Below the pieces are notes generated by a model. That model worked only from the letters and a program-made list of their open reading frames with translations, was not told the DNA's origin and did not search any database. Positions 3,222-57,157 of a stretch of 64,000 bases of DNA are shown here, in pieces. Within the stretch, counting starts at the first letter, position 1. Each line of letters opens with the position of its first letter. Source of the stretch: Dehalococcoidia bacterium (GTDB lineage: Bacteria > Chloroflexota > Dehalococcoidia > Bin125); contig JAJDTU010000010.1 in the NCBI GenBank assembly GCA_022826965.1, positions 62,001 through 126,000 on the forward strand, in the 5' to 3' direction. A program made the translations under genes and the position numbers.

Positions 3222-4466
3222 CTACGTCAGCGCATCGGCGATGGCGAGTTCGGCGATATTCTCGTCGTCGTAGCCGAGGATGTCTCGCAGCACGATGTCG
3301 TTGTCGCGGCCGATGGATGGCGCGACAGAGCGATAGCTGGGAGGCGTTTCCGTTAGCTGCCCCTTGGCGGCCTCGAAGGTGGTGGTTCCGTGTTCCGGGT
3401 GTTCCATTTCGATGAAGTGGCCTCGGTGCTGGAACTGTGGATCCTGAGCGGCGGCAGAGCTGTTGGAGACGGCGTGGGCCGGCACGCCGAAGGCCTGGAG
3501 CATGTATTCGATTTCGATCGCGCCGTGTTCGGAGGTCCACGTCGAGACGATGCCGTTGAGTTCGTCCTCGTTGGCCTTGCGGGCGGCGATGTCGGCGAAG
3601 CGGTCGTCGCAGGTCAGTTCGCCCTGCCCCATGGCGGAACAGAGATTGGCCCAATCGCCGTCGTCGCGCACGGCGACGGCGACCCAATCGTCCTCACCGG
3701 ACGCTGCGTAGCATCCGTGTGGGGCCATGTCTGGGTCGGTGTTGCCGACGAGCTGCGGAACACGTCCGTTGACGTGGTAATCGAGCAGTGCCGTGCTCAT
3801 GAAGTGCAGCGAAGACTCCGCCTGAGCCTGGTCGATGTAGAGGCCCTCACCGGTGCGGTCGCGATGGTCGAGCGCGGCGAGGATGGTGGGCAGCGCGAAT
3901 CGCGGTGAGAGGTAGTCGGTGTAGGCGGAGTAGGGACCGATCGGGGAGCCGCCGGGATTGCCGGCGAGCGCGATGTAGCCGCCGATCGCCGCACCCATGG
4001 TTCCAAATCCCGCGACCCTGGAGAGCGGCCCTTCCTGCCCAAAGAGGCAGGTGGAGAGCATGATCAGTTCCGGCTTGATTCGCTTGAGCGAGTCGTAGTC
4101 CATGCCCCAGGCGCGCATCGCGCGGGGTGAGAACGACTCGGTCAGTACGTCACACCATTTGATCAGGTCGAGCAGGACATCACGGCCGGCATCGGTGCCG
4201 AGATTGAGTGAGAGTCCGAGCTTGTTGATGTTCATGTTGCTGAACAGGCCGGAGTGGTCGGGACCCTGTCCGTTGTTGTGATACGGCCCGATTCCGCGCG
4301 CCGTCTCGATCCGATTGGCGGACTCGACGCGCACGACGGTTGCGCCGAAGTCGGCCATCGCGCGGGTCGCGGTTGGCCCGGCCACGACCCACATCAGGTC
4401 GAGCACCTTGAGTCCGGCCAGCGCGCCCTCGGTCGGAATCCCGGGAGTGTTGCTGAGCGTTGTCAT
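3222..4466 (-). CDS. class III CoA-transferase (CaiB/BaiF), nucleophile present
   Basis: 414 residues. It has the N-terminal CaiB Rossmann segment (GLKVLDL...AGPTATRAMADFGATVVRVE), the NMNINKLGLSLNL strand and the family's GEGLYIDQAQAES helix. Asp184 (in YTDYLSP) sits 22 residues before the GxG of that helix, the position of the catalytic Asp that forms the aspartyl-CoA thioester in formyl-CoA transferase and CaiB. Its ATG directly abuts the stop of the preceding CoA-transferase gene at 4467, so the two are translationally coupled. It moves CoA between carboxylic acids; donor and acceptor are unknown. The partner gene lacks the Asp. Confidence 0.9.
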   Translation of the reverse strand: MTTLSNTPGIPTEGALAGLKVLDLMWVVAGPTATRAMADFGATVVRVESANRIETARGIGPYHNNGQGPDHSGLFSNMNINKLGLSLNLGTDAGRDVLLDLIKWCDVLTESFSPRAMRAWGMDYDSLKRIKPELIMLSTCLFGQEGPLSRVAGFGTMGAAIGGYIALAGNPGGSPIGPYSAYTDYLSPRFALPTILAALDHRDRTGEGLYIDQAQAESSLHFMSTALLDYHVNGRVPQLVGNTDPDMAPHGCYAASGEDDWVAVAVRDDGDWANLCSAMGQGELTCDDRFADIAARKANEDELNGIVSTWTSEHGAIEIEYMLQAFGVPAHAVSNSSAAAQDPQFQHRGHFIEMEHPEHGTTTFEAAKGQLTETPPSYRSVAPSIGRDNDIVLRDILGYDDENIAELAIADALT

Positions 4467-33873: not shown

Positions 33874-35208
33874 CTATCGGCGACTCCCGAGCCGCGGTGT
33901 ATCGACCAGTGTCCCGTCGGAGACAAACTCGGCAATCTCGGCGTCGCTGAAGCCCAGTTCCTCGCAGATCTGCCGGTTGTCGCCGCCCAACCGTGGAGCC
34001 GGACGCATCTCCGCCGGTCCCCTCTCGCTGAAGTGGATCGGCGAGCCGCCGTACTCGTAGGTGCCGACTCCGGGCTGGTCCCACTCGACGATGAACCCTC
34101 GCGCCCGCAGATGCTCCGATTGGACCAGGTCGCCGTTCGTCATCACCGGCAGCGCGGTGATGTCTGCGGCCTGCAGCCGTGCTGCCAGCTCGAAACGATC
34201 GCAATCGCGGGTCCACGCCGAGATCAGCGCATCAAGTTCATCGTGCAGCGCAAACCGGCCGGCGTTGCTCTCAAAGCGGGAGTCGTCGAGACGCTCATCG
34301 CCGACCATTCTCTTGAACCGCCCCCATGCGGCGGCGTCTTCAATCGTGATCGCGATCCACATATCCATCGACTCACGCGCATCGGGGCTCTCATCACGGC
34401 AGCGATAGACGCCCTGCAACGAGCCGTCCCTCGAGCGGTTGCCGCGCGTCTGCGGCTGACCCTGCACCGACGTCTCGAGTACGAGCTCACCGGCCACCGC
34501 CGTGTAGGTCTGAAGCTGCGAGAGGTCAACGAAGCAACCCTGCCCGGTCTCGTCGCGTTCCCAGAGCGCCGCGAGCACCGCGAACGCTCCATGCAGGCCG
34601 CCGATCGGGTCCGGGAAGGCGTGACCCATCTTCATCGGTCCGCCCTCGAGATAGCCGGTTACTGACGTCGTGCCGGAGTGCGCCTCAAGCACCGGACCGT
34701 ACGAGACACGCTGCCGAAATGGGCCGGTGTGACCGTAGCCCGTGCAGGAGACTGAGATGATTCGCGGATTCCACCGTTTGACGGTCTCGTAGTCGATGCC
34801 CAGGCTCTTCGATCCGCGCGGACTGAAGTTGTCGACGATCACGTCCGACTCTTCAACCAGCCGACGCCAGATCCGCTTGCCGGACGGAGTCTTCAGATTG
34901 GCGCACAGTCCGCGCTTGTTGCGGTTGTGCTTGTTGTAGATGCCTGAGCTGTTCCAGGGCTCCGCCCCGGGTTGGCCTTCGGGATACACCGACGCGCGCA
35001 GGGTCGGCTCGACCTGCTCGCCGCGACGCCAATCGTCGAGTGCGGCTCGCAGTACAGGATCATCCGGTACAGGACCGCCCCGCGCGTTGTCCTGCTCCAC
35101 CTTGATCACGTCCGCGCCCAGATCGCCCATCGTCCGACCGACCAATGGCCCAGCCCAGGCATAGCCGAACTCCACCACACGCAGACCCGACAACATGCCC
35201 TCAACCAT
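33874..35208 (-). CDS. class III CoA-transferase (CaiB/BaiF), nucleophile present
   Basis: 444 residues from the ATG at 35208, chosen because it gives an 8-base ATGGTTGA overlap with the upstream partner's stop. RVVEFGYAWAGPLVGRTMGD and GADVIKVEQDNARGGPV; an insertion of about 25 residues follows before NKHNRNKRGLCANL. Asp200 in AFPDPIGG is at the nucleophile position, followed by the GQGCFVDLSQLQ helix. The partner encoded just upstream (35201-36412) lacks the Asp. It is convergent with the thioredoxin-reductase fusion. Substrates unknown. Confidence 0.9.
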   Translation of the reverse strand: MVEGMLSGLRVVEFGYAWAGPLVGRTMGDLGADVIKVEQDNARGGPVPDDPVLRAALDDWRRGEQVEPTLRASVYPEGQPGAEPWNSSGIYNKHNRNKRGLCANLKTPSGKRIWRRLVEESDVIVDNFSPRGSKSLGIDYETVKRWNPRIISVSCTGYGHTGPFRQRVSYGPVLEAHSGTTSVTGYLEGGPMKMGHAFPDPIGGLHGAFAVLAALWERDETGQGCFVDLSQLQTYTAVAGELVLETSVQGQPQTRGNRSRDGSLQGVYRCRDESPDARESMDMWIAITIEDAAAWGRFKRMVGDERLDDSRFESNAGRFALHDELDALISAWTRDCDRFELAARLQAADITALPVMTNGDLVQSEHLRARGFIVEWDQPGVGTYEYGGSPIHFSERGPAEMRPAPRLGGDNRQICEELGFSDAEIAEFVSDGTLVDTPRLGSRR

Positions 35209-36412
35209 GCGCTGTTCCGTGCAGTGCAATCACGCCGGCATCCAACAGCGATTCGATCTCCGCGTCGTCGATACCGGCCTCGGAGAGCACCGCGCGAGTG
35301 TCGGCGCCGAGACTCGGCGCGGCCCGGAAGTCATCGGGCGACGACGGCAGGACGAACGGCAGACCCGGCATCTTCGCGCCTGACGCCAGGTGTTCGGGAT
35401 ACGCCCAGAATGCCCGAGCCTCGAGCTGTTCATCCTCCTGAACCTCGTCCATTGAAAGCACGGCGCTGGCCGGAACGTGAAATTCCTGCAGCAGCTCGAC
35501 GACTTCGGTGCGCGTCCTCGACATGAGGAAGGGCGCAAATCGTCCGTCGATCTCCTCGGCCGCGTCGAATCGCAGGCCCGAAGTGGCGTAGCGCGGGTCA
35601 TCGGCCATCTCCGGCAACTCCAGCGCGATGCAGAGGCTGGTCCACTGCGCGGCTGTCGGCGCGCCGATGCAGACCCAGCCGTCGCTGACCTGCATCAGCG
35701 ACACCGGATGATGCGCCTCGGCGTGGCGATTGTTGGCGCGGTGCTTGATCCGTCCCTGGTGCGACCACATGACCAGGCTCCACTGGTGCGACGACGCCAT
35801 CGACTCCATCGTCCCCACATCGACCAGTTGACCCCGTCCGCTCGTCCGCCGTGCATGCAGCGCGGCCATCGTTCCGACTGCCGCGGTGATCCCGGCCACG
35901 TAGGACGTCCACGGACCCGCTCCCTGAAGCGGTTCGCGCAACGGATCGCCGGTGATGTACAGATAGCCGCCCGACGCCCAGTCTGTCAGGTCGGACGAGC
36001 GCCAGCCGGCCCACGGTCCGCTCAGTCCGTAGGCGGTCGCCGAGACGTGAACCAGGCCGGGACGCTCGGAGCGGACCCGGCCGTCGAACGCCAACGCCTG
36101 GGAGTCGGCCATCGAGGTGATCACCACGTCCGCTTGGTCGAGCAGATGCCCGAACGCGTCGAAGCCTGGCCCCGAGTCCCAATCGAGAGCAACGCCGCGC
36201 TTCCAGGCCGAGAGGTACTCGAAGGCGGCACTGCGCATCGGATCAATGGCCGTCAAGAGCGGTGGCCTCGACCGCAACCTGGATCCGGCCGTCGGCTCGA
36301 CCAGCGTGACCTGTGCGCCGGCGGTCGCGAGCAGCCGCCCACAGTACGCGCCCGAGACCTGATCGCTCAGGTCGAGCACACGCAGGCCCGACATCCCTTG
36401 CATGTTCGCCAT
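35201..36412 (-). CDS. CaiB/BaiF-like protein lacking the Asp nucleophile
   Basis: 403 residues. It opens LRVLDLSDQVSGAYCGRLLA, sharing the 'D-S-x-x-x-G-A-Y-C-x-(K/R)-L-L-A' signature with the N-terminal half of the fusion at 46417 and, loosely, with the protein at 58974. At the catalytic position GAGPWTSYVAG has Ser170 instead of Asp. AWKRGVALDW and SGRGQLVDVGTMES complete the fold. Its start is 4 bp after the patatin stop with GAAGG upstream, and its end overlaps the Asp-containing gene. A heteromeric role is inferred. Confidence 0.88.
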   Translation of the reverse strand: MANMQGMSGLRVLDLSDQVSGAYCGRLLATAGAQVTLVEPTAGSRLRSRPPLLTAIDPMRSAAFEYLSAWKRGVALDWDSGPGFDAFGHLLDQADVVITSMADSQALAFDGRVRSERPGLVHVSATAYGLSGPWAGWRSSDLTDWASGGYLYITGDPLREPLQGAGPWTSYVAGITAAVGTMAALHARRTSGRGQLVDVGTMESMASSHQWSLVMWSHQGRIKHRANNRHAEAHHPVSLMQVSDGWVCIGAPTAAQWTSLCIALELPEMADDPRYATSGLRFDAAEEIDGRFAPFLMSRTRTEVVELLQEFHVPASAVLSMDEVQEDEQLEARAFWAYPEHLASGAKMPGLPFVLPSSPDDFRAAPSLGADTRAVLSEAGIDDAEIESLLDAGVIALHGTAHG

Positions 36413-36416
36413 CGGG

Positions 36417-37295
36417 TCAGACCTTCGCCACCGGGACGACGCCCTCGTAGATGCCGGGAATCCACTCGCCCAGTGAATCGAGCGCCTGGTCGATCATCAC
36501 CGGCGCCAACTCCCTCGCCTCGCCGTAGAGTTCCTTGACGTCGTGGAACGAGCCGAACGACTCTGCTCGCAGACCAGGCCGCCAGATCACGGTTGGCACG
36601 ATGGAACCAAACTGGTCGATCTCAGCCTTGGTCCGTTCCTGCACGGCAATCTCCATTGAACGAGCCAGGAGGTCTACAAGCCCGCGCGGCTGATACGGGG
36701 AAGGATGTACCCCAAGGTCAATCGCGATTGTATGCGTCGCTCCCTGCAGAATCGCCGTCTCCAGGTCGAGACCGGATGAGAGCCCGCCGTCGACGCACCA
36801 GTCACCGTCAAAGCGGACCGGCGGGAACAACCCGGGCAGCGCGATCGACGCCATCACCCCTGAGAGCAATTGCCCGCGCGACAGTATCCGCTTGCGACCG
36901 TTCGACAGGCTGGTCGTGACGAGATACAGGGGTATCTCAGCGGCCGCAATCTCGTCGATCGTTACGTGTGGCTTGAACAGCTCCCGGAGGAAGCGGTTGG
37001 AGTAGACAGACGTGCCCTTGGTCAGCAGATTTCTCGTGATGCGCAGGATGTTGCGGTGCCAGAGCCGGGTGTTGCGCAGCTCGATCCAGAGGTCCGCGAG
37101 GCCCTCGATGCTGTTCGGATGAAATGCGAGAAACGCACCGTTCACCGCTCCGACCGACGATCCGACGATCAGGTCGGGATGAATGTCACGGCGAATCAGT
37201 TCCTCGAGGAACGGGACCTGGACGATTCCCGACGCCCCGCCTCCGCTCAACACCAGTGCCAGTCGCCGCTCCTCTAGCCCCCTGAGACTCGTCAT
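36417..37295 (-). CDS. patatin-like phospholipase
   Basis: 292 residues. ALVLSGGGASGIVQVPFLEEL gives the oxyanion-hole glycines, IVGSSVGAVNGAFLA holds the nucleophile elbow (GSSVG, Ser), and WCVDGGLSSGLDLETA carries the catalytic Asp of the Ser-Asp dyad. No signal peptide. It is RssA-like and may hydrolyse acyl chains of phospholipids or acyl-CoA esters. It lies 14 bp after the methylmalonyl-CoA epimerase gene and 4 bp before the CaiB pair, so it is part of that transcription unit. Confidence 0.92.
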   Translation of the reverse strand: MTSLRGLEERRLALVLSGGGASGIVQVPFLEELIRRDIHPDLIVGSSVGAVNGAFLAFHPNSIEGLADLWIELRNTRLWHRNILRITRNLLTKGTSVYSNRFLRELFKPHVTIDEIAAAEIPLYLVTTSLSNGRKRILSRGQLLSGVMASIALPGLFPPVRFDGDWCVDGGLSSGLDLETAILQGATHTIAIDLGVHPSPYQPRGLVDLLARSMEIAVQERTKAEIDQFGSIVPTVIWRPGLRAESFGSFHDVKELYGEARELAPVMIDQALDSLGEWIPGIYEGVVPVAKV

Positions 37296-37309: not shown

Positions 37310-37744
37310 CTACGCTTGCGGCCTGCGATCCGGCACGATCTCGGTCAGGATCCCGCCCGCGGTCTTCGGGTGGAAGAACGAGGCGGTGATCTCATCGATC
37401 GGCCCACCGAAGTCGATGTAGTTGAGCCCGCGTTCCATGAACAGCTTGGTGTCGCCCACGACGTCCGTCGACCCGTAGCCCAGGTGATGCAGCCCGGGTC
37501 CGCGACGCTCCAGGTACCTGCCGATCCCGCTGACGTTGTCCTCGGGCAGCAGGATCTCGATCCGCGTCTCGCCGAGGTTGACCTTGACGAAGAAGATCTT
37601 CGTCCGCTCTGGAGCGAAGTAGCCACCCTCCGGGTACGGAGTGCGCTCTGTGTCTCGCAGCAGGCCCAATTGGTCAACCAGTACCGACGTCGCTTCTTCC
37701 AGCGAGTTCGCCACGATTCCCACGTGATCGAGATATGTAATCAT
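37310..37744 (-). CDS. mce: methylmalonyl-CoA epimerase (VOC/glyoxalase fold)
   Basis: 144 residues from the ATG at 37744, which has GAGAGGGGC upstream; the longer frame is not coding. MITYLDHVGIVANSLEEAT gives His7 as first metal ligand, HHLGYGSTDV a second and ILTEIVPD the C-terminal Glu. The segment LPEDNVSGIGRYLERRGPGL is typical of methylmalonyl-CoA epimerase. It interconverts the (S) and (R) forms in propionyl-CoA catabolism. The nearby biotin carboxylase/BCCP gene at 43573 could supply methylmalonyl-CoA, though no mutase is visible here. Confidence 0.88.
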   Translation of the reverse strand: MITYLDHVGIVANSLEEATSVLVDQLGLLRDTERTPYPEGGYFAPERTKIFFVKVNLGETRIEILLPEDNVSGIGRYLERRGPGLHHLGYGSTDVVGDTKLFMERGLNYIDFGGPIDEITASFFHPKTAGGILTEIVPDRRPQA

Positions 37745-37833: not shown

Positions 37834-39267
37834 CTATTGCAGGCGACGCAGGGTCGGCGAGAAGCTGCCGAACAGCATCAGCGCGGCCAATAGTGCGGCG
37901 GCGACGACAAACACGGTGAGCCGCACCCCGACTAACTCCGCCGCGATGCCCAGCACGAACACGCCGCCCTGCATCAACGCGAACTGCATCATCAGCACCG
38001 ACATCGCGCGTCCGCGATAGGCCGGCTCGGCCTGTTCTTGGATGAGCGCCGAGGCCATCGCCATCCGTCCAGACTGCCCGATGCCCATCAGGATCATGAT
38101 CGGCAGACTCAACCAGATCCACGGTGAAATCGCTACCCCCAGCGTCGCTCCGCCGACAAAGACGCCCATCAGGATCAAGAGCTTGCCCCGACCGCTGCGC
38201 CGGAGCGAGGCGATGATCAGCGCCGCCAGGAACGCTCCAATCGCCGAGAACGTCATGAACAACGCGGCCAATGCCGGTCCGGCGTCGAACGCGTCCTGGA
38301 CGAATCCCGGTAGCAGACCCTGGAATGGCATGCCCAGCACCGAGACGCAGAACGAGAGCAACAGGATCATCCTCAGCACACGGTGCCGGGCGATGTAGCG
38401 GAAACCGTCGGCGATGTCGCCCATCGCCTCCCGCAGTCCGCCGCCGCCGCGTCCTGCCTGCGCCGCCACCGTCGGAATCGGCAGCATCGTCAGGATCGCC
38501 AGCGCGTAGCAGCCGGCCATCACGTAGAACGTCACGCCGGCGCCGGCCGTGGCCAGCAATGCTCCGCCGATCAATGGCGCGGCGAACTGCATGATGTTCA
38601 TCGCTGCCGTGTTCAGCGCCACACCGTTCATGATCCGTTCCCTGGAGACGATCTCCGAGACCATCGCCTGCCGAGCCGGGACCATCAGCGCGACGAGGAT
38701 TCCTTGCGAGACCGCCGAGATCAGCAGGTGCCAGAACTCGAGGATGCCCAGGATCGCCAGCGTGCCGATGATGAACGCGTTGAGGAAGCCGACGAATTGG
38801 AAGATCTGGGTCACCGACTTCTTGGGAAAGCGGTCGGCCAGCACGCCACCGTACGGACCCAGGGCAAACTGAACAGCGCCGCTCACGAGCGCCACCAGCC
38901 CCATCGCCGCGTAGGAGTCAGTCAGTTCATAGACGAGAAACGAGCGGACAAACATCTGTCCGATCGCCGAATACATCTGTCCCAGGGTCGAGACGAAGAA
39001 CCAGCGAAAGGCGGGTTCGCGAAACGACTCGAACGTCCGTACCCGCCGCCCGAAGACCCGTATCGGCGGCGAGTCGGTGGGTGCGGCAGCCCCCGCGTTC
39101 TCTCCCCGCGCGGAGCGGGCGGAGATGTCACGGAGTGACAGAGGGGGGCTCCCCACCGGCTGCCCCCGTGAACCGTCGGGCCCGTTCGGCTCGGCGTCCG
39201 TTGAGTGGTGTTGGTGCTGTCCGGCGCGCCGCGCAACGACTGACTCGGACGGCGGCCTAGCCGCCAT
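37834..39267 (-). CDS. MFS transporter with repeat-derived N-terminal extension
   Basis: 477 residues from the ATG at 39267. Residues from about 80 form the MFS core (FRWFFVSTLGQMYSAIGQMF, LGPYGGVLADRFPKKSV as the loop-2/3 motif, SREQ-like ERIMNGVALNTAAMN), similar to the TMS_drug/enterobactin-exporter-like MFS group, with about 11-12 spans. The first 75 residues are hydrophilic, and residues around 38-58 (VGSPPLSLRDISARSARGE) are translated from the dispersed hairpin repeat. No ATG exists between the repeat and the first membrane span, so translation must pass through or start inside the repeat (a GTG at the V of VGSPP is possible). It overlaps the upstream gene by 11 bp. Confidence 0.85.
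   Translation of the reverse strand: MAARPPSESVVARRAGQHQHHSTDAEPNGPDGSRGQPVGSPPLSLRDISARSARGENAGAAAPTDSPPIRVFGRRVRTFESFREPAFRWFFVSTLGQMYSAIGQMFVRSFLVYELTDSYAAMGLVALVSGAVQFALGPYGGVLADRFPKKSVTQIFQFVGFLNAFIIGTLAILGILEFWHLLISAVSQGILVALMVPARQAMVSEIVSRERIMNGVALNTAAMNIMQFAAPLIGGALLATAGAGVTFYVMAGCYALAILTMLPIPTVAAQAGRGGGGLREAMGDIADGFRYIARHRVLRMILLLSFCVSVLGMPFQGLLPGFVQDAFDAGPALAALFMTFSAIGAFLAALIIASLRRSGRGKLLILMGVFVGGATLGVAISPWIWLSLPIMILMGIGQSGRMAMASALIQEQAEPAYRGRAMSVLMMQFALMQGGVFVLGIAAELVGVRLTVFVVAAALLAALMLFGSFSPTLRRLQ
39101..39155. repeat. tripartite hairpin repeat inside an ORF
   Basis: The first stem is imperfect (TCTCCCCGC against GCGGGCGGAGA). The second is TGTCAC 39126-39131 with GTGACA 39135-39140. 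GAGGGGGGCTCCCC follows as third stem. It is in frame within the 5' part of the MFS gene on the minus strand and reads PPLSLRDIS. The same peptide is encoded by the copy at 53049. Confidence 0.8.
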
Positions 39268-40051
39268 AGTGCCAGCCGGTGTAGAGCGAGGTCAGCGGCC
39301 CCTCGTCGATCGGCAGCGCATCGCCGTCGAACACCCGGCACAACGCGAGCACATGCTCGCCGACTGGTATGAACTGCTGCGCTTCGGCAGCGATCCAGGC
39401 CAACGAGTCCTCCAGCACCGGCGCGCCGTCGCCGAGTTGTGGATGCTCAAGCTGTACGTAGCCGACCCCGCGCATCTTGTCCGGCGCGGCGAACTCCGCC
39501 GAACGCCCCTCGATCTTCGATGGATCGGTCGGCTGCAGGAAGCGAGCTGCCAGGTCCATGCCCGATTCGGGCAGCAGACTGACGGTCAGCTGGCGCGTCT
39601 CGCGCACGTTGCGCAGCGACGCTGCGTCGCGCTCGAACGACACGCAGATGATTCGTGGCCGGAATGAGACCTGCATCACCCAGTCGGCGACCATCGCGTT
39701 CGCCTTGCCCTCAGGCGTCACTGTGCCGACCACGTAGATCCCGTAGGGCAGATGCTGCAGCGCCGACCGTATTCGCACGTCCTGGCGGCGCTCGCGTGTC
39801 GTCAACGCCCGATCATTCCGCGGCGCTTCGTCGATTCCCACATCGATTGTCGGAGTATCGGAGCCCAGCAACAAATCGACCGCCGCGTTGAGCTCCAGCA
39901 TCCGCACGCCGGCCGCGTCGTCATCCGGATTGGCGTCGGGATGGTAGATCCGCGCCAGGCGGCGATATCGATCACGAATCGTGTCCCGGTCGGCCGTCAG
40001 CCCCACGCCCAGGAGCGCTGCTGCATCTGCCGCCGTACTGGGAATCGGCAT
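39257..40051 (-). CDS. J-domain fused to flavin-reductase-like FMN-binding domain
   Basis: 264 residues. Residues 8-62 form a J-domain: DAAALLGVGLTADRDTIRDR, YRRLARIYHPDANPDDD with the HPD signature at 37-39, and AVDLLLG. Residues about 90-262 are a flavin reductase-like split barrel: ALQHLPYGIYVVGTVTPEGK, NAMVADWVMQVSFRPRIICV, the cofactor-binding SFERDAASLRNVRETRQLTVSLL, and a long loop FLQPTDPSKIEGRSAEF. J-domains stimulate Hsp70 ATPase; the reductase-like part binds FMN and reduces it or donates it to oxygenases. The combination in one chain is unusual. It follows the S9 peptidase after 8 bp. Confidence 0.88.
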   Translation of the reverse strand: MPIPSTAADAAALLGVGLTADRDTIRDRYRRLARIYHPDANPDDDAAGVRMLELNAAVDLLLGSDTPTIDVGIDEAPRNDRALTTRERRQDVRIRSALQHLPYGIYVVGTVTPEGKANAMVADWVMQVSFRPRIICVSFERDAASLRNVRETRQLTVSLLPESGMDLAARFLQPTDPSKIEGRSAEFAAPDKMRGVGYVQLEHPQLGDGAPVLEDSLAWIAAEAQQFIPVGEHVLALCRVFDGDALPIDEGPLTSLYTGWHYGG

Positions 40052-40059
40052 AGCGTCTC

Positions 40060-42177
40060 CTACCCCCTGCCCTTCAGGTGACGCTCGAAATAGCGAGCGA
40101 CCCGGCGCTCCTGATACTCGAGTCCCGCCTGATCTCGGGGCATGTGACGCTCCTCCGGGAACATCAGCAAATCGTAGTCGCGATCTGCCGAGGTCAGCGC
40201 CGTGATCAATCGTGCCGTATGCCGGAAGTGAACGTTTTCATCAACGCCGCCGTGAATGAGCAGCAGGCGACCTTGCAGCTTCTCGACATGGGTCAGTAGC
40301 GAGCCCTCGCGGTAGCCCTCCGCGTTGTTCTGCGGCGTGCCCATGTAGCGCTCGGTGTAGCCGGTGTCGTACCCGTCCCAGTCCGAGACCGGAGCGCCCG
40401 ACACGCCAACCTTGAACAGGTCCGGCCGGCGCAGCATCGACATCACCGTCATGTAGCCCCCGTAGGACCAACCGTAGACGCCGACCCGCTCGGCGTCCGC
40501 CGTCCCCTCCGAGACCAATTGATCCACCGCCGCCGCCTGGTCGTCCACCTCGATCGTGCCCATCTGTCGATGCAGGTGAGCCTCAAACTTAAGGCCGCGT
40601 CCCGCCATGCCACGATTATCCAGCTTGAGCACGAGAAATCCCTGCTGCGCCAGGTACTGCGCACGCAAGTCGACCGTCAGTCCCCACGCATCCAGCACCG
40701 TCTGCGCATGAGGTCCGCCGTACACCGCCACGAGCAGTGGTTTGGGGCCGTCATCGTCAGGTCGGTACAGCGCCCCGTACAAGGTCGTGCCGTCGGCGGC
40801 TGAGAATGTGCGCAGCTCCGGAGGAGCGACACCCAGTCCCGGTGCGGACACCTCGGACTGGTACAACGTCCGCCGCTCCGACCCGTCTGTTGCTACGAGT
40901 GCGATAGCCGGAGGCGACCCCAGCGACGAACTGAACATCGCCAACCACTTACCGTCCTTCGACAGGGAAGCCCCGTGCAGACCCCCGGGCTCGGAGAGCG
41001 TCTCGATTGCGCCGCCCGCCAGCGATACCCGTTCGACCCGCCGCTCCAGCGCCGACCCGCGCGTGCTGTTGAAGTAGACCCAGCCAGCGTCCTCGTCGAC
41101 GCCGATCGTGCCGTCCACCATCCACTCGCCCTCGGTCAAGGAGCGAATCAGCTCGCCATCGGCGGCATGCAGAGAAAGATGTCGAAAGCCTGATGCCTCA
41201 GACGACCAGAGGAACGTTCCGTCCTTCAGCGCCTGCGCGTCGTCGGCCACATTGATCCACGGTTCCTGCACCTCATCAATCAGCGTCACGCTGGTCTCGT
41301 CGTGGAACGCCAGCAGCCGAAGTCCCTTCTGTTCTCGGTCGACCCACTGCGCCACCAGTCGCTCTCCGCCGTCTCCATTCGGCGACCAGGCGACGCGGAC
41401 GAGGTATCCGTCCTCTTCGGGCAACGACAGTTGCGCGTCCTCGCCGCTCGCCACATCTACCAGGCGGAGGGACACGCGCGGGTTCTCGCCCCCCGCGAAC
41501 GGGTAGCGGTGCGTTTCCACATCAACACCGTCGCTGCCCTGGTGCACAATCGGATACGGAGCAATATGGCGCTCGTCCGCCTTCAGGTAGCCAATCCGAC
41601 CGTCGCCGGACCACCAGTGACCGCGCAACAGACCAAACTCTTCCTGCGCGATGTAGTCGGGCAGCCCGTGACTGAGGCCATCCTCGGCCCCATTCGTCAA
41701 CTGACGCGCCTCCGACAATCCATCGACCGCCATCACAAAGAGCTCGCCGCCGCGCACGAACGACAGCTGGGTTCCGTCGGGGCTGAGACTGGGTGTCAAG
41801 GCGCCCTCGCTACCTGCCAGTTCTCGCAGCGGCTCGCCATCGACGGAGACCCGCACCTGAGGACCGGGAATCATCAACACCGGGACCGCTGAATCCCGAG
41901 CCCAGGTGTACGCCGACACACCCAGTTCGCGTGTCCTCGTGCGTTCGCGCAGCAGCTCTTCCTCGCGCGACATCGGTGCCTCGGCGCCGGGCCCGGCGAG
42001 GACCGAACGTGCTCCCGTCGTCACGTCAATCTGCCAGAGAGAACGCACCAGGCCGCCATCGGCGGCGTGCAGCCAGTTGACTGCGGAACTGTCCGGTGTG
42101 AACCCAACCATGCCAGGCGCGTCCATGCCCGGCCGCGGGTAGCTGGCGACATCCGAGATCGTCAGCCGCTCAGCCAT
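40060..42177 (-). CDS. S9 family prolyl oligopeptidase / dipeptidyl peptidase IV-like
   Basis: 705 residues from the ATG at 42177, which overlaps the upstream stop as ATGGCTGA; an in-frame start at 42198 is less likely. The N-terminal two thirds is a DPP-IV-type beta-propeller (DGLPDYIAQEEFGL carries the Glu-Glu pair that binds the substrate amino terminus). The C-terminal alpha/beta hydrolase has Ser in YGWSYGGYMTVMSML, Asp in IHGGVDENVHF and His in EERHMPRD. No signal peptide, so cytosolic. It probably trims X-Pro/X-Ala dipeptides and works beside the PepP next door. Confidence 0.92.
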   Translation of the reverse strand: MAERLTISDVASYPRPGMDAPGMVGFTPDSSAVNWLHAADGGLVRSLWQIDVTTGARSVLAGPGAEAPMSREEELLRERTRTRELGVSAYTWARDSAVPVLMIPGPQVRVSVDGEPLRELAGSEGALTPSLSPDGTQLSFVRGGELFVMAVDGLSEARQLTNGAEDGLSHGLPDYIAQEEFGLLRGHWWSGDGRIGYLKADERHIAPYPIVHQGSDGVDVETHRYPFAGGENPRVSLRLVDVASGEDAQLSLPEEDGYLVRVAWSPNGDGGERLVAQWVDREQKGLRLLAFHDETSVTLIDEVQEPWINVADDAQALKDGTFLWSSEASGFRHLSLHAADGELIRSLTEGEWMVDGTIGVDEDAGWVYFNSTRGSALERRVERVSLAGGAIETLSEPGGLHGASLSKDGKWLAMFSSSLGSPPAIALVATDGSERRTLYQSEVSAPGLGVAPPELRTFSAADGTTLYGALYRPDDDGPKPLLVAVYGGPHAQTVLDAWGLTVDLRAQYLAQQGFLVLKLDNRGMAGRGLKFEAHLHRQMGTIEVDDQAAAVDQLVSEGTADAERVGVYGWSYGGYMTVMSMLRRPDLFKVGVSGAPVSDWDGYDTGYTERYMGTPQNNAEGYREGSLLTHVEKLQGRLLLIHGGVDENVHFRHTARLITALTSADRDYDLLMFPEERHMPRDQAGLEYQERRVARYFERHLKGRG

Positions 42178-43576
42178 TGGCAGCGCCCAAGCCGTCACGT
42201 CGGATCGCTTCGATCTCGTCCGCCGACTTCGGCAGCGCCTCGCTCATCACCTCGCAACCGTCGCCGGTAATCAACACATCATCCTCAATCCGAATTCCGC
42301 CGAAGTCGAGCAGGCCATCGACGACATCCCAGTTCACCATCTCCGCGTATCGTTCTCGACGCGCCGGGTCGGTCAGCAACGCCGGAACGAAGTAGATGCC
42401 CGGCTCGATCGTGACCACGTAGCCCGGTGCGAGCGGCAGGTCGGTCCTCAGGTAGGCGAGACCGAACCGATCCTCAGGCACACGACCTTCGAGATATCCG
42501 GCACAGTCGTGGGTCGAGAGGCCCAGCATGTGTCCGAGTCCGTGAGGAAAGAACAGGGCGTGCGCGTCGGCTGCGACCAGCTCCTCAACCGACCCACGCA
42601 GGATGCCCGCATCGACCAGTCCCTGGGCAATCGTCGCCGACGCCTGCATGTGCAACGACTTGTACTCCACGCCCGGGCCAGCGCCCGCGATCGCTTCCTG
42701 CTGCGCCGCCAGCACCACGTTGTAGAGGTCTCGTTGGATACCTGTGAACTCAGCCGACACCGGGAAGGTCCGCGTCACATCCGAGGCATAACCCTCGATC
42801 TCCGCGCCCGCGTCGATCAGTACCAGTTCCCCGTCAGACATCACCCGCTCTCCCGGCGTCCCATGCAGGATCGCCGAGTTCGGTCCCGAGCCGACGATCG
42901 ATCCGTAGGCCGTCCGCGCGCCGCCCCGGCGGAAGAACTCCGCTTCCATCTCAATCTGCAACGCCCGCTCCGTCAGGCCATGGCGGGCGAGGCGCTGCGC
43001 CGCAAGATGCCCAAAGACAGCGGCGTCGACCGCTCGAGTCATCCGATCAAGTTCGACTGCGTCCTTCGCCCGCCGCAGCTCCGCCAGCGCCTTGCCCAGG
43101 CGCTCCGTGGCCTCCTCGTCCACAACCGCCTCAAGCGACGACCACGACTCCACCCCGTACTCGGTCGCACGCAGCTCGACATCCCGCGAGCCCAGTAGCG
43201 CCATGCCTCGCCCGCGCCGCGACTCCAGCCAGCCGGCCAGCTCGGAGCGATCGACCGAGCGCGACACGCCGGTCTCGGCCGCCAGTTCGTCCGCCGATGG
43301 CGGAGCCGACATCCAGACCAGATCCTCTACCGACAGCGATGGCGCGAACAGCGTCCAGCCGTCGCCCGGCTCCCACGCGAGCGCTGCTCCCGGTTCCGCC
43401 ACTCCGGTCAGGTACTGGAACTCGGGATGTGCATGAAACTCGTGAAACTGGTCGGTGCCGTCAATCGGAATTGGCAAACTGGCCGGAATCAACACCGGGC
43501 CATCGAACTCGGCGCTCGACCAAGCCGCCTCGACGCGCAGCCGACGCTCGCGCAGGACTTCGGTATCGCTCATCAT
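42170..43576 (-). CDS. pepP: Xaa-Pro aminopeptidase (M24B)
   Basis: 468 residues; start ATGATG at 43576/43573 overlaps the carboxylase stop. The N-terminal AMP_N domain (FHEFHAHPEFQYLTG) is followed by the pita-bread domain with five metal ligands: two Asp in LIDAGAEIEGYASDVTRTF, His in FFPHGLGHMLGLSTHD, Glu in TIEPGIYF and Glu in GGIRIEDDVLIT. A dinuclear Mn enzyme removing N-terminal residues before proline. It is adjacent to and overlapping an S9 peptidase, making a coordinated proline-peptide degradation pair. Confidence 0.94.
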   Translation of the reverse strand: MMSDTEVLRERRLRVEAAWSSAEFDGPVLIPASLPIPIDGTDQFHEFHAHPEFQYLTGVAEPGAALAWEPGDGWTLFAPSLSVEDLVWMSAPPSADELAAETGVSRSVDRSELAGWLESRRGRGMALLGSRDVELRATEYGVESWSSLEAVVDEEATERLGKALAELRRAKDAVELDRMTRAVDAAVFGHLAAQRLARHGLTERALQIEMEAEFFRRGGARTAYGSIVGSGPNSAILHGTPGERVMSDGELVLIDAGAEIEGYASDVTRTFPVSAEFTGIQRDLYNVVLAAQQEAIAGAGPGVEYKSLHMQASATIAQGLVDAGILRGSVEELVAADAHALFFPHGLGHMLGLSTHDCAGYLEGRVPEDRFGLAYLRTDLPLAPGYVVTIEPGIYFVPALLTDPARRERYAEMVNWDVVDGLLDFGGIRIEDDVLITGDGCEVMSEALPKSADEIEAIRRDGLGAANG

Positions 43577-55906: not shown

Positions 55907-57157
55907 ATGCACCTGATGTACTTCACCGAACAGCCGATGTCGGCCTATGACGAGCACGCCGCCGAGGAGGGCGTCACCGCCCTGCTCTTCTCCAACTCCA
56001 ACTTCGACCCCGTCGCCGGCTCACAGCTCTACAACGACCGCCTGACCGAGTACAAGCTGGCCGAGGAAGTCGGTGTCGACGGGATCATGCTCAACGAGCA
56101 CCACAACGCGCCCTTCTGCATGCAGGCCAAATGCAACATCTGGGCCTCCGTCCTCGCCGGCGCGACCGAGCGCGTCAAGATCGTCCTGCTCGGCAACCCG
56201 CTGCCACTGGCCGACAACCCAATCCGGCTCGCCGAAGAGCTCGCCATGATCGACATGATCTCCGGCGGCCGGCTCGTCTCCGGCTTCGTCCGCGGCGGCG
56301 GCACCGAGCAGCTCGCCACCGGCGTCAACCCGGCCTACAATCGCGAGCGCTTTGAAGAAGCGCACGACCTTATTGTCGAAGCCTGGACCCGACCCGGACC
56401 CTTCCGCTGGGAGGGTCGCCACTACCAGCACCGCGTGGTCAACCCCTGGGCGCTGCCGATGCAGCAGCCCCACCCGCGCATCTGGATCCCGGGGGTGCTC
56501 TCCCGTGAAACCGTGATCTGGGCCGCGAAGCATCGCTACCCCTACATCGCGCTCAACACCACCATCGAGGCGACCAAGCGGATCTGGCAGACATACGACG
56601 ACGCAGCCAACGAGGTCGGCTACGACCCCGGCCCCGAAAACCGCGGCTACCTGCTCCGCGTCCATGTCGCCGACACGACGGAAAAGGCGATGCAGAACGC
56701 GTCGCAGTTCATGTGGATGCAGGGCGAGTTCACCGGACTCGCCCACCCGGTCTGGTCGAACCCGGCCGGCTATGCCTCGCCGCGCAACCGCGAAGCGCTG
56801 GTCGAAGTGATGAACGGCCGCCGACCCCCGCCGCGCGCGCAGTCCTTCGACAATCAGATCGAGAACATGCAGATCATCGCCGGCACGCCGGACGAGTGCA
56901 TCCGCAAGCTGCGCACGATCCTCGAAGAAACCCGCCCCGGCATCCTCGCCCTCTGGGGCAACGACGGTCGGGTCACGCACGAGGACTCGATGCGCTGCAT
57001 CGAACTGCTCGGCACCGAGGTCATGCCCGCCCTCCGCGACATCGGAGCCGAACTCGACCTCGACGGCCCCTTCGACTCCGAACCCCCCGTCAGCATCAGC
57101 TACGACGAAGCCGCAAAAGCCCGCGTCGCTTCAGCAGCAGCGGCATCGGGCGACTAG
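55907..57157 (+). CDS. luciferase-like flavin/F420-dependent monooxygenase (LLM class)
   Basis: 416 residues with the bacterial-luciferase TIM barrel: YKLAEEVGVDGIMLNEHHNAPF, RVKIVLLGNPLPLADNPIRLAEELAMID, ISGGRLVSGFVRGGGTEQ and ERFEEAHDLIVEAW, with HPRIWIPG and a C-terminal IAGTPDECIRKLRTILEETR. These group-C flavoproteins use reduced FMN (or F420) to oxygenate substrates and need a separate reductase. Expansion of such monooxygenases has been reported for SAR202. A hairpin repeat follows its stop. Confidence 0.92.
   Translation: MHLMYFTEQPMSAYDEHAAEEGVTALLFSNSNFDPVAGSQLYNDRLTEYKLAEEVGVDGIMLNEHHNAPFCMQAKCNIWASVLAGATERVKIVLLGNPLPLADNPIRLAEELAMIDMISGGRLVSGFVRGGGTEQLATGVNPAYNRERFEEAHDLIVEAWTRPGPFRWEGRHYQHRVVNPWALPMQQPHPRIWIPGVLSRETVIWAAKHRYPYIALNTTIEATKRIWQTYDDAANEVGYDPGPENRGYLLRVHVADTTEKAMQNASQFMWMQGEFTGLAHPVWSNPAGYASPRNREALVEVMNGRRPPPRAQSFDNQIENMQIIAGTPDECIRKLRTILEETRPGILALWGNDGRVTHEDSMRCIELLGTEVMPALRDIGAELDLDGPFDSEPPVSISYDEAAKARVASAAAASGD

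Follow-up and report, generated by a model that had tools for sequence, protein, structure and literature searches.

J-proteins choose which substrates Hsp70 serves. Bacterial class C J-proteins, e.g., DjlA and HscB, possess a J-domain joined to an unrelated domain which confers specificity; the C-terminal domains of DjlA, HscB and others are unrelated to the barrel described here. Combinations of a J-domain with a redox cofactor domain have been described before. The DnaJ-Fer proteins of Thaumarchaeota and green plants (CDJ3/CDJ4 of Chlamydomonas, DJC76/77/82 of Arabidopsis) carry, like the fusion protein analyzed here, an HPD-type J-domain and a redox cofactor domain. Their partner is an Fe-S ferredoxin whereas here it is a flavin split barrel, and the lineages differ. 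Pfam finds no ferredoxin behind the J-domain of the fusion, which sets it apart from DnaJ-Fer. According to titles cited in PMC3564930 and PMC3720927, CDJ3/4 interact with the chloroplast HSP70B.

On the flavin side the closest described systems are TTHA0420 and its Flavin_Reduct (PF01613) relatives. They share with the fusion the barrel, the W-V-x-Q-x-S-F-x-P block, a GDH-type His and a C-terminal TGW-x-Y-G-G, yet lack a J-domain. TTHA0420 has been described as a flavin reductase that follows a ping-pong mechanism, and in ThdF the His of the GDH motif contacts the nicotinamide (PMC11795597). The reductases of two-component monooxygenases (StyB, HpaC, HsaB) have a weaker yet significant profile similarity to the barrel, which misses every NCBIfam equivalog cut-off (best 41 of 200 bits).

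What appears to be new is the flavin-reductase partner. The original prediction that no protein of this architecture has been characterized agrees with the open-access literature, where most subscription papers are missing and where we found no description of a protein with a J-domain and a flavin reductase. A maintained link of this kind would speak for a bacterium in which Hsp70 is connected with flavoenzyme biogenesis or with the supply of flavin. Being small and expressible, the fusion protein lends itself to studies of the coupling between cofactor delivery and chaperone action; its lineage has an unusual abundance of luciferase-family genes.

A J-domain and a flavin-reductase-like barrel in one frame

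The window, i.e., the whole 64-kb stretch of DNA which was analyzed, carries the fusion gene among peptidase and transporter genes (Table 1). The original prediction named no strand; the gene is on the minus strand, and the plus-strand frame at this locus is interrupted by a stop codon.

Table 1. Coordinates of the fusion gene, its parts and its neighbors in the window.
Feature	Position	Strand	Properties and basis
Fusion gene	39257..40051	-	264 aa plus stop; frame open from the ATG (40051) to the stop (39257), closely preceded by a GGAG-type ribosome site
J-domain module	39854..40051	-	Residues 1-66; HPD at 37-39; M-x-[IV]-P leader; Pfam, AlphaFold2, conservation, dN/dS
Variable linker	39767..39853	-	Residues 67-95; without domain match
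Flavin-binding split barrel	39260..39766	-	Residues 96-264; G[D/E]H at 231-233; C-terminal TGWxYxG; Pfam, profile match to 1wgb/1yoa
S9 dipeptidyl peptidase IV-like peptidase, upstream operon gene	40060..42198	-	Pfam; adjoins the fusion in the 12 genus loci compared; not found in G015-G017
M24 aminopeptidase P-like, upstream operon gene	42170..43576	-	Pfam
MFS transporter (MFS_3), directly downstream operon gene	37834..39267	-	Pfam; start codon uncertain
VOC/glyoxalase-like protein, downstream	37310..37744	-	Gene call; family named by eye from sequence
Patatin-like phospholipase, downstream	36417..37295	-	Pfam

The predicted combination of an HPD-containing J-domain and a flavin-reductase-like domain in one frame was confirmed, both Pfam domains scoring above their cut-offs. 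DnaJ (PF00226) matches residues 13-61 with 39.5 bits (curated cut-off 27.8; E 6e-10), and the HPD lies between helices II and III. Flavin_Reduct (PF01613) matches residues 99-247, i.e., across the barrel, with 86.7 bits (cut-off 27; E 2e-24; profile positions 2-135 of 153). Pfam finds these two domains alone; with a J-domain and neither a G/F region nor a zinc finger nor a DnaJ C-terminal domain, the protein belongs to class C (type III).

AlphaFold2 predicts J-domain helices at residues 7-14, 22-36, and 45-62 with block-mean pLDDT values of about 75-89; the model contains no helix IV. In an alignment of 17 fusions the HPD is invariant (17/17), as are N41 and P42, R30 in helix II, and M51, E53, L54, and N55 in helix III. 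Not every fusion retains the residues which correspond to R22 and R36 of E. coli DnaJ. The linker is mostly predicted with pLDDT <50 and has 18-21% identity to the other fused genera. For the barrel the model is poor (pLDDT about 30-60), since its alignment was shallow and comprised near-identical sequences only.

Among solved structures the barrel is closest to T. thermophilus TTHA0420 (PDB 1wgb, 1yoa; E 2e-12 with the single sequence, 2e-38 with a profile). The whole barrel including the C-terminus is conserved as in the stand-alone relatives, and all 17 fusions retain the catalytic-type His of the GDH motif. At window positions 39353-39361 (residues 231-233) the 14 members compared within the window genus all read GEH; GDH is present in the other fused genera and in nearly all stand-alone relatives. 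The barrel cannot be called a StyB, HpaC or RutF enzyme since its scores with these NCBIfam equivalogs are far below cut-off (best 41.5 bits vs 200). A separate internal start for the barrel was likewise rejected: residues 55-110 contain no conserved in-frame start codon.

Among 14 genus members dN/dS averages 0.051 (J part), 0.194 (linker) and 0.066 (barrel); these are Nei-Gojobori values with dS near or above 1, i.e., the ratios are rough. By these values, the J part is under purifying selection as strong as that of the barrel within the genus. The pattern of selection and conservation is unlike that of a J-domain which has become useless.

A protein search in 100 related genomes returned full-length matches (1-264) in 14 of 15 genomes of the same genus, that of the window included, with 86-100% identity. 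Further full-length matches with 46-50% identity come from two other genera of the same family (G016, G018, and G019). The sole genome of the genus without the fusion (G002) is explained by its assembly: the contig breaks off within the upstream S9 peptidase gene, and the expected fusion site thus lies past the contig end. The matching loci stem from Chloroflexota/Dehalococcoidia metagenome assemblies of several isolate series. An artefact, i.e., a frameshift or a chimeric contig which joined two genes, is therefore virtually precluded, because the same frame is open in 17 genomes of three genera from different assemblies and substitutions are of the coding type across both domains and the linker. 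The fusion is real and evolutionarily maintained in one uncultured Chloroflexota family.

Distribution and origin of the fusion

When 393 Dehalococcoidia genomes were searched with a profile of the fusion, the barrel subfamily was found in 109 and a J-domain plus barrel in 17. All 17 belong to three genera of one family (f1), where alone the match covers the full length (1-263). The barrel match in the other 92 genomes sets in well within the profile, for most of them at positions 69-95; for the few which start early (39-59) a stop codon lies in between. No HPD-containing J-domain precedes the barrel in those stand-alone relatives whose upstream stretch was read. Outside the family, a phylum sample of 400 genomes contained no further fusion at E 1e-12. 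Viral contigs yielded no relative; among the plasmid matches listed there are flavin domains, and no record there spans both parts.

Because 92 other Dehalococcoidia genomes carry a J-less barrel and no fusion was found elsewhere in the phylum sample, the J-domain appears to have been acquired in the lineage of this family, onto a pre-existing stand-alone barrel. Relatives with separate parts had been put forward as a possible refutation of the original prediction. J-less barrels are indeed common in the class; they date the fusion and do not refute it. In a maximum-likelihood tree the fused barrels form two groups with an unresolved backbone, which is compatible with either one or two fusion events.

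The window genus has this barrel subfamily in the fused form only, and G016 holds one fused and one stand-alone copy. The M-x-[IV]-P leader of the J module is family-specific. A protein from a fourth genus (G017; L122:8186-9292, minus strand) has the same family-specific J module and a quite different C-terminus, in which a charged low-complexity stretch precedes a domain which Pfam does not recognize; this C-terminal part has no match elsewhere in 294 Dehalococcoidia genomes. Since the J module resides there on another C-terminus, this family has joined it to two different C-terminal parts.

Stand-alone barrels in genomes of two genera, G069 (L129:9520-12414) and G035 (L131:9670-12631), are situated beside P450-like, luciferase-like and nitroreductase-like genes (families by eye).

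Gene neighborhood

The gene lies, as originally described, inside a peptidase/transporter operon, with the S9 peptidase gene 5' and the MFS gene directly 3'. The minus strand 5' of the fusion ATG reads TAGGAGACGCTATG. The TAG within it is the stop codon of the S9 peptidase, 8 bp upstream of the fusion gene; therefore, the two genes are probably translationally coupled. The order S9 peptidase, fusion, MFS gene prevails in the genus (12 loci compared). The MFS gene is called beside the fusion in 10/12 loci, and in L046 and L048 its frame was not called.

In other genera the surroundings are different. In G016 the fusion closes a series of genes which includes coxSLM-like genes, an O-methyltransferase and, upstream of the fusion on the same strand, a luciferase-like gene; in G018 the fusion is located between AIM24-like and FAD-oxidoreductase-like genes (all families by eye). 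We considered the peptidase/transporter operon as a guide to function and rejected it, for its gene order is confined to the genus. Since the fusions of the other genera do not have these genes as conserved neighbors, the operon tells little about function.

DnaK, flavoenzymes and possible functions

One full-length DnaK is encoded in the genome, beside a canonical DnaJ gene, and there are four J-domain genes including the fusion. Thus, an Hsp70 partner for the fusion exists. Recruitment of Hsp70, as originally proposed, is plausible: the HPD and most features of helix II are kept and a full-length DnaK is at hand. The genome (G000, 3.0 Mb) further contains about 67 luciferase-family (PF00296) genes, counted from 69 matches of which two are second pieces of one frame, versus four Flavin_Reduct genes. 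An expansion of flavin monooxygenases has been reported for SAR202 Chloroflexota (PMC5395668), and the number found here is in line with it. The more specific proposal, delivery of reduced flavin to the luciferase-like enzyme at 55907, was not borne out. This gene is 16 kb away and outside of the operon, and its position is at chance level: at one luciferase-family gene per about 45 kb, P is about 0.5 for finding one within 16 kb on either side. With genes of this family so common, the link is uninformative. FMN loading, likewise part of the original prediction, and flavin reduction fit the sequence data alike.

Our tentative preference, held with somewhat less than even confidence, is a class C J-protein in which the J-domain would stimulate the DnaK of the cell while the barrel would bind flavin and reduce it with NAD(P)H. 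The barrel would also set the target of DnaK, i.e., flavin-dependent enzymes, which are unusually many in this genome; with about 67 luciferase-family genes these are the most reasonable clients. The fusion protein may then help apo-flavoenzymes to fold or to stay loadable while it supplies flavin, a J module having presumably been joined to an older stand-alone barrel within the lineage of the family. The luciferase-like gene upstream of the fusion in G016 would fit this reading. Several points stand against it. The neighbors differ between genera, i.e., no partner is implied by context. The Asp of the GDH motif is Glu across the genus, the R22 and R36 equivalents vary, and the barrel model is poor. 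It is unlikely that the protein is a flavin-redox co-chaperone in the full sense. In that case it would be the first J-protein whose flavin reductase directs DnaK in addition to supplying reduced flavin, and it would couple cofactor supply and enzyme folding in one polypeptide in a lineage with an expanded set of flavin monooxygenases.

A possible, if doubtful, alternative is a sensor role of the barrel. The display of the J-domain would change with flavin occupancy or with the redox state, and DnaK would be recruited under oxidative or flavin-poor conditions. The flexible linker suits a movable J-domain, and J-proteins with redox-active Fe-S clusters which bind HSP70B are a precedent (CDJ3/4, by a title cited in PMC3564930 and PMC3720927). 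However, no sensing residue was identified, and the conservation of the GDH His and of the whole barrel as in stand-alone relatives suggests that ordinary chemistry has been kept.

It is rather improbable that the J-domain serves its own reductase exclusively, recruiting DnaK in cis to fold, stabilize or tether it with no other client. J-less barrels of the subfamily are common, so the reductase function is older than the J-domain, and the restriction of the window genus to the fused copy would fit. Yet stand-alone relatives persist without a J-domain, in G016 even alongside a fused copy. Least probable among the functional alternatives, and very unlikely, is a J-domain which no longer engages DnaK and operates as a small protein-interaction module: the missing helix IV and the variation at some positions where E. 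coli DnaJ contacts DnaK (R22, R36) point this way, but the HPD is invariant in every fusion, the dN/dS of the J part is about 0.05, and J-like proteins are usually distinguished by the absence of the HPD (PMC3720927).

The window contains many genes similar to CoA-transferase family III (CaiB/BaiF), starting at 3222, 4467, 26118, 27851, 33874, 35201, 46417, 58974, and 60230. The one at 35201-36412 was confirmed by Pfam, the others were recognized by eye from gene calls. An expansion of CaiB/BaiF CoA-transferases has been reported for SAR202, too (PMC5395668).
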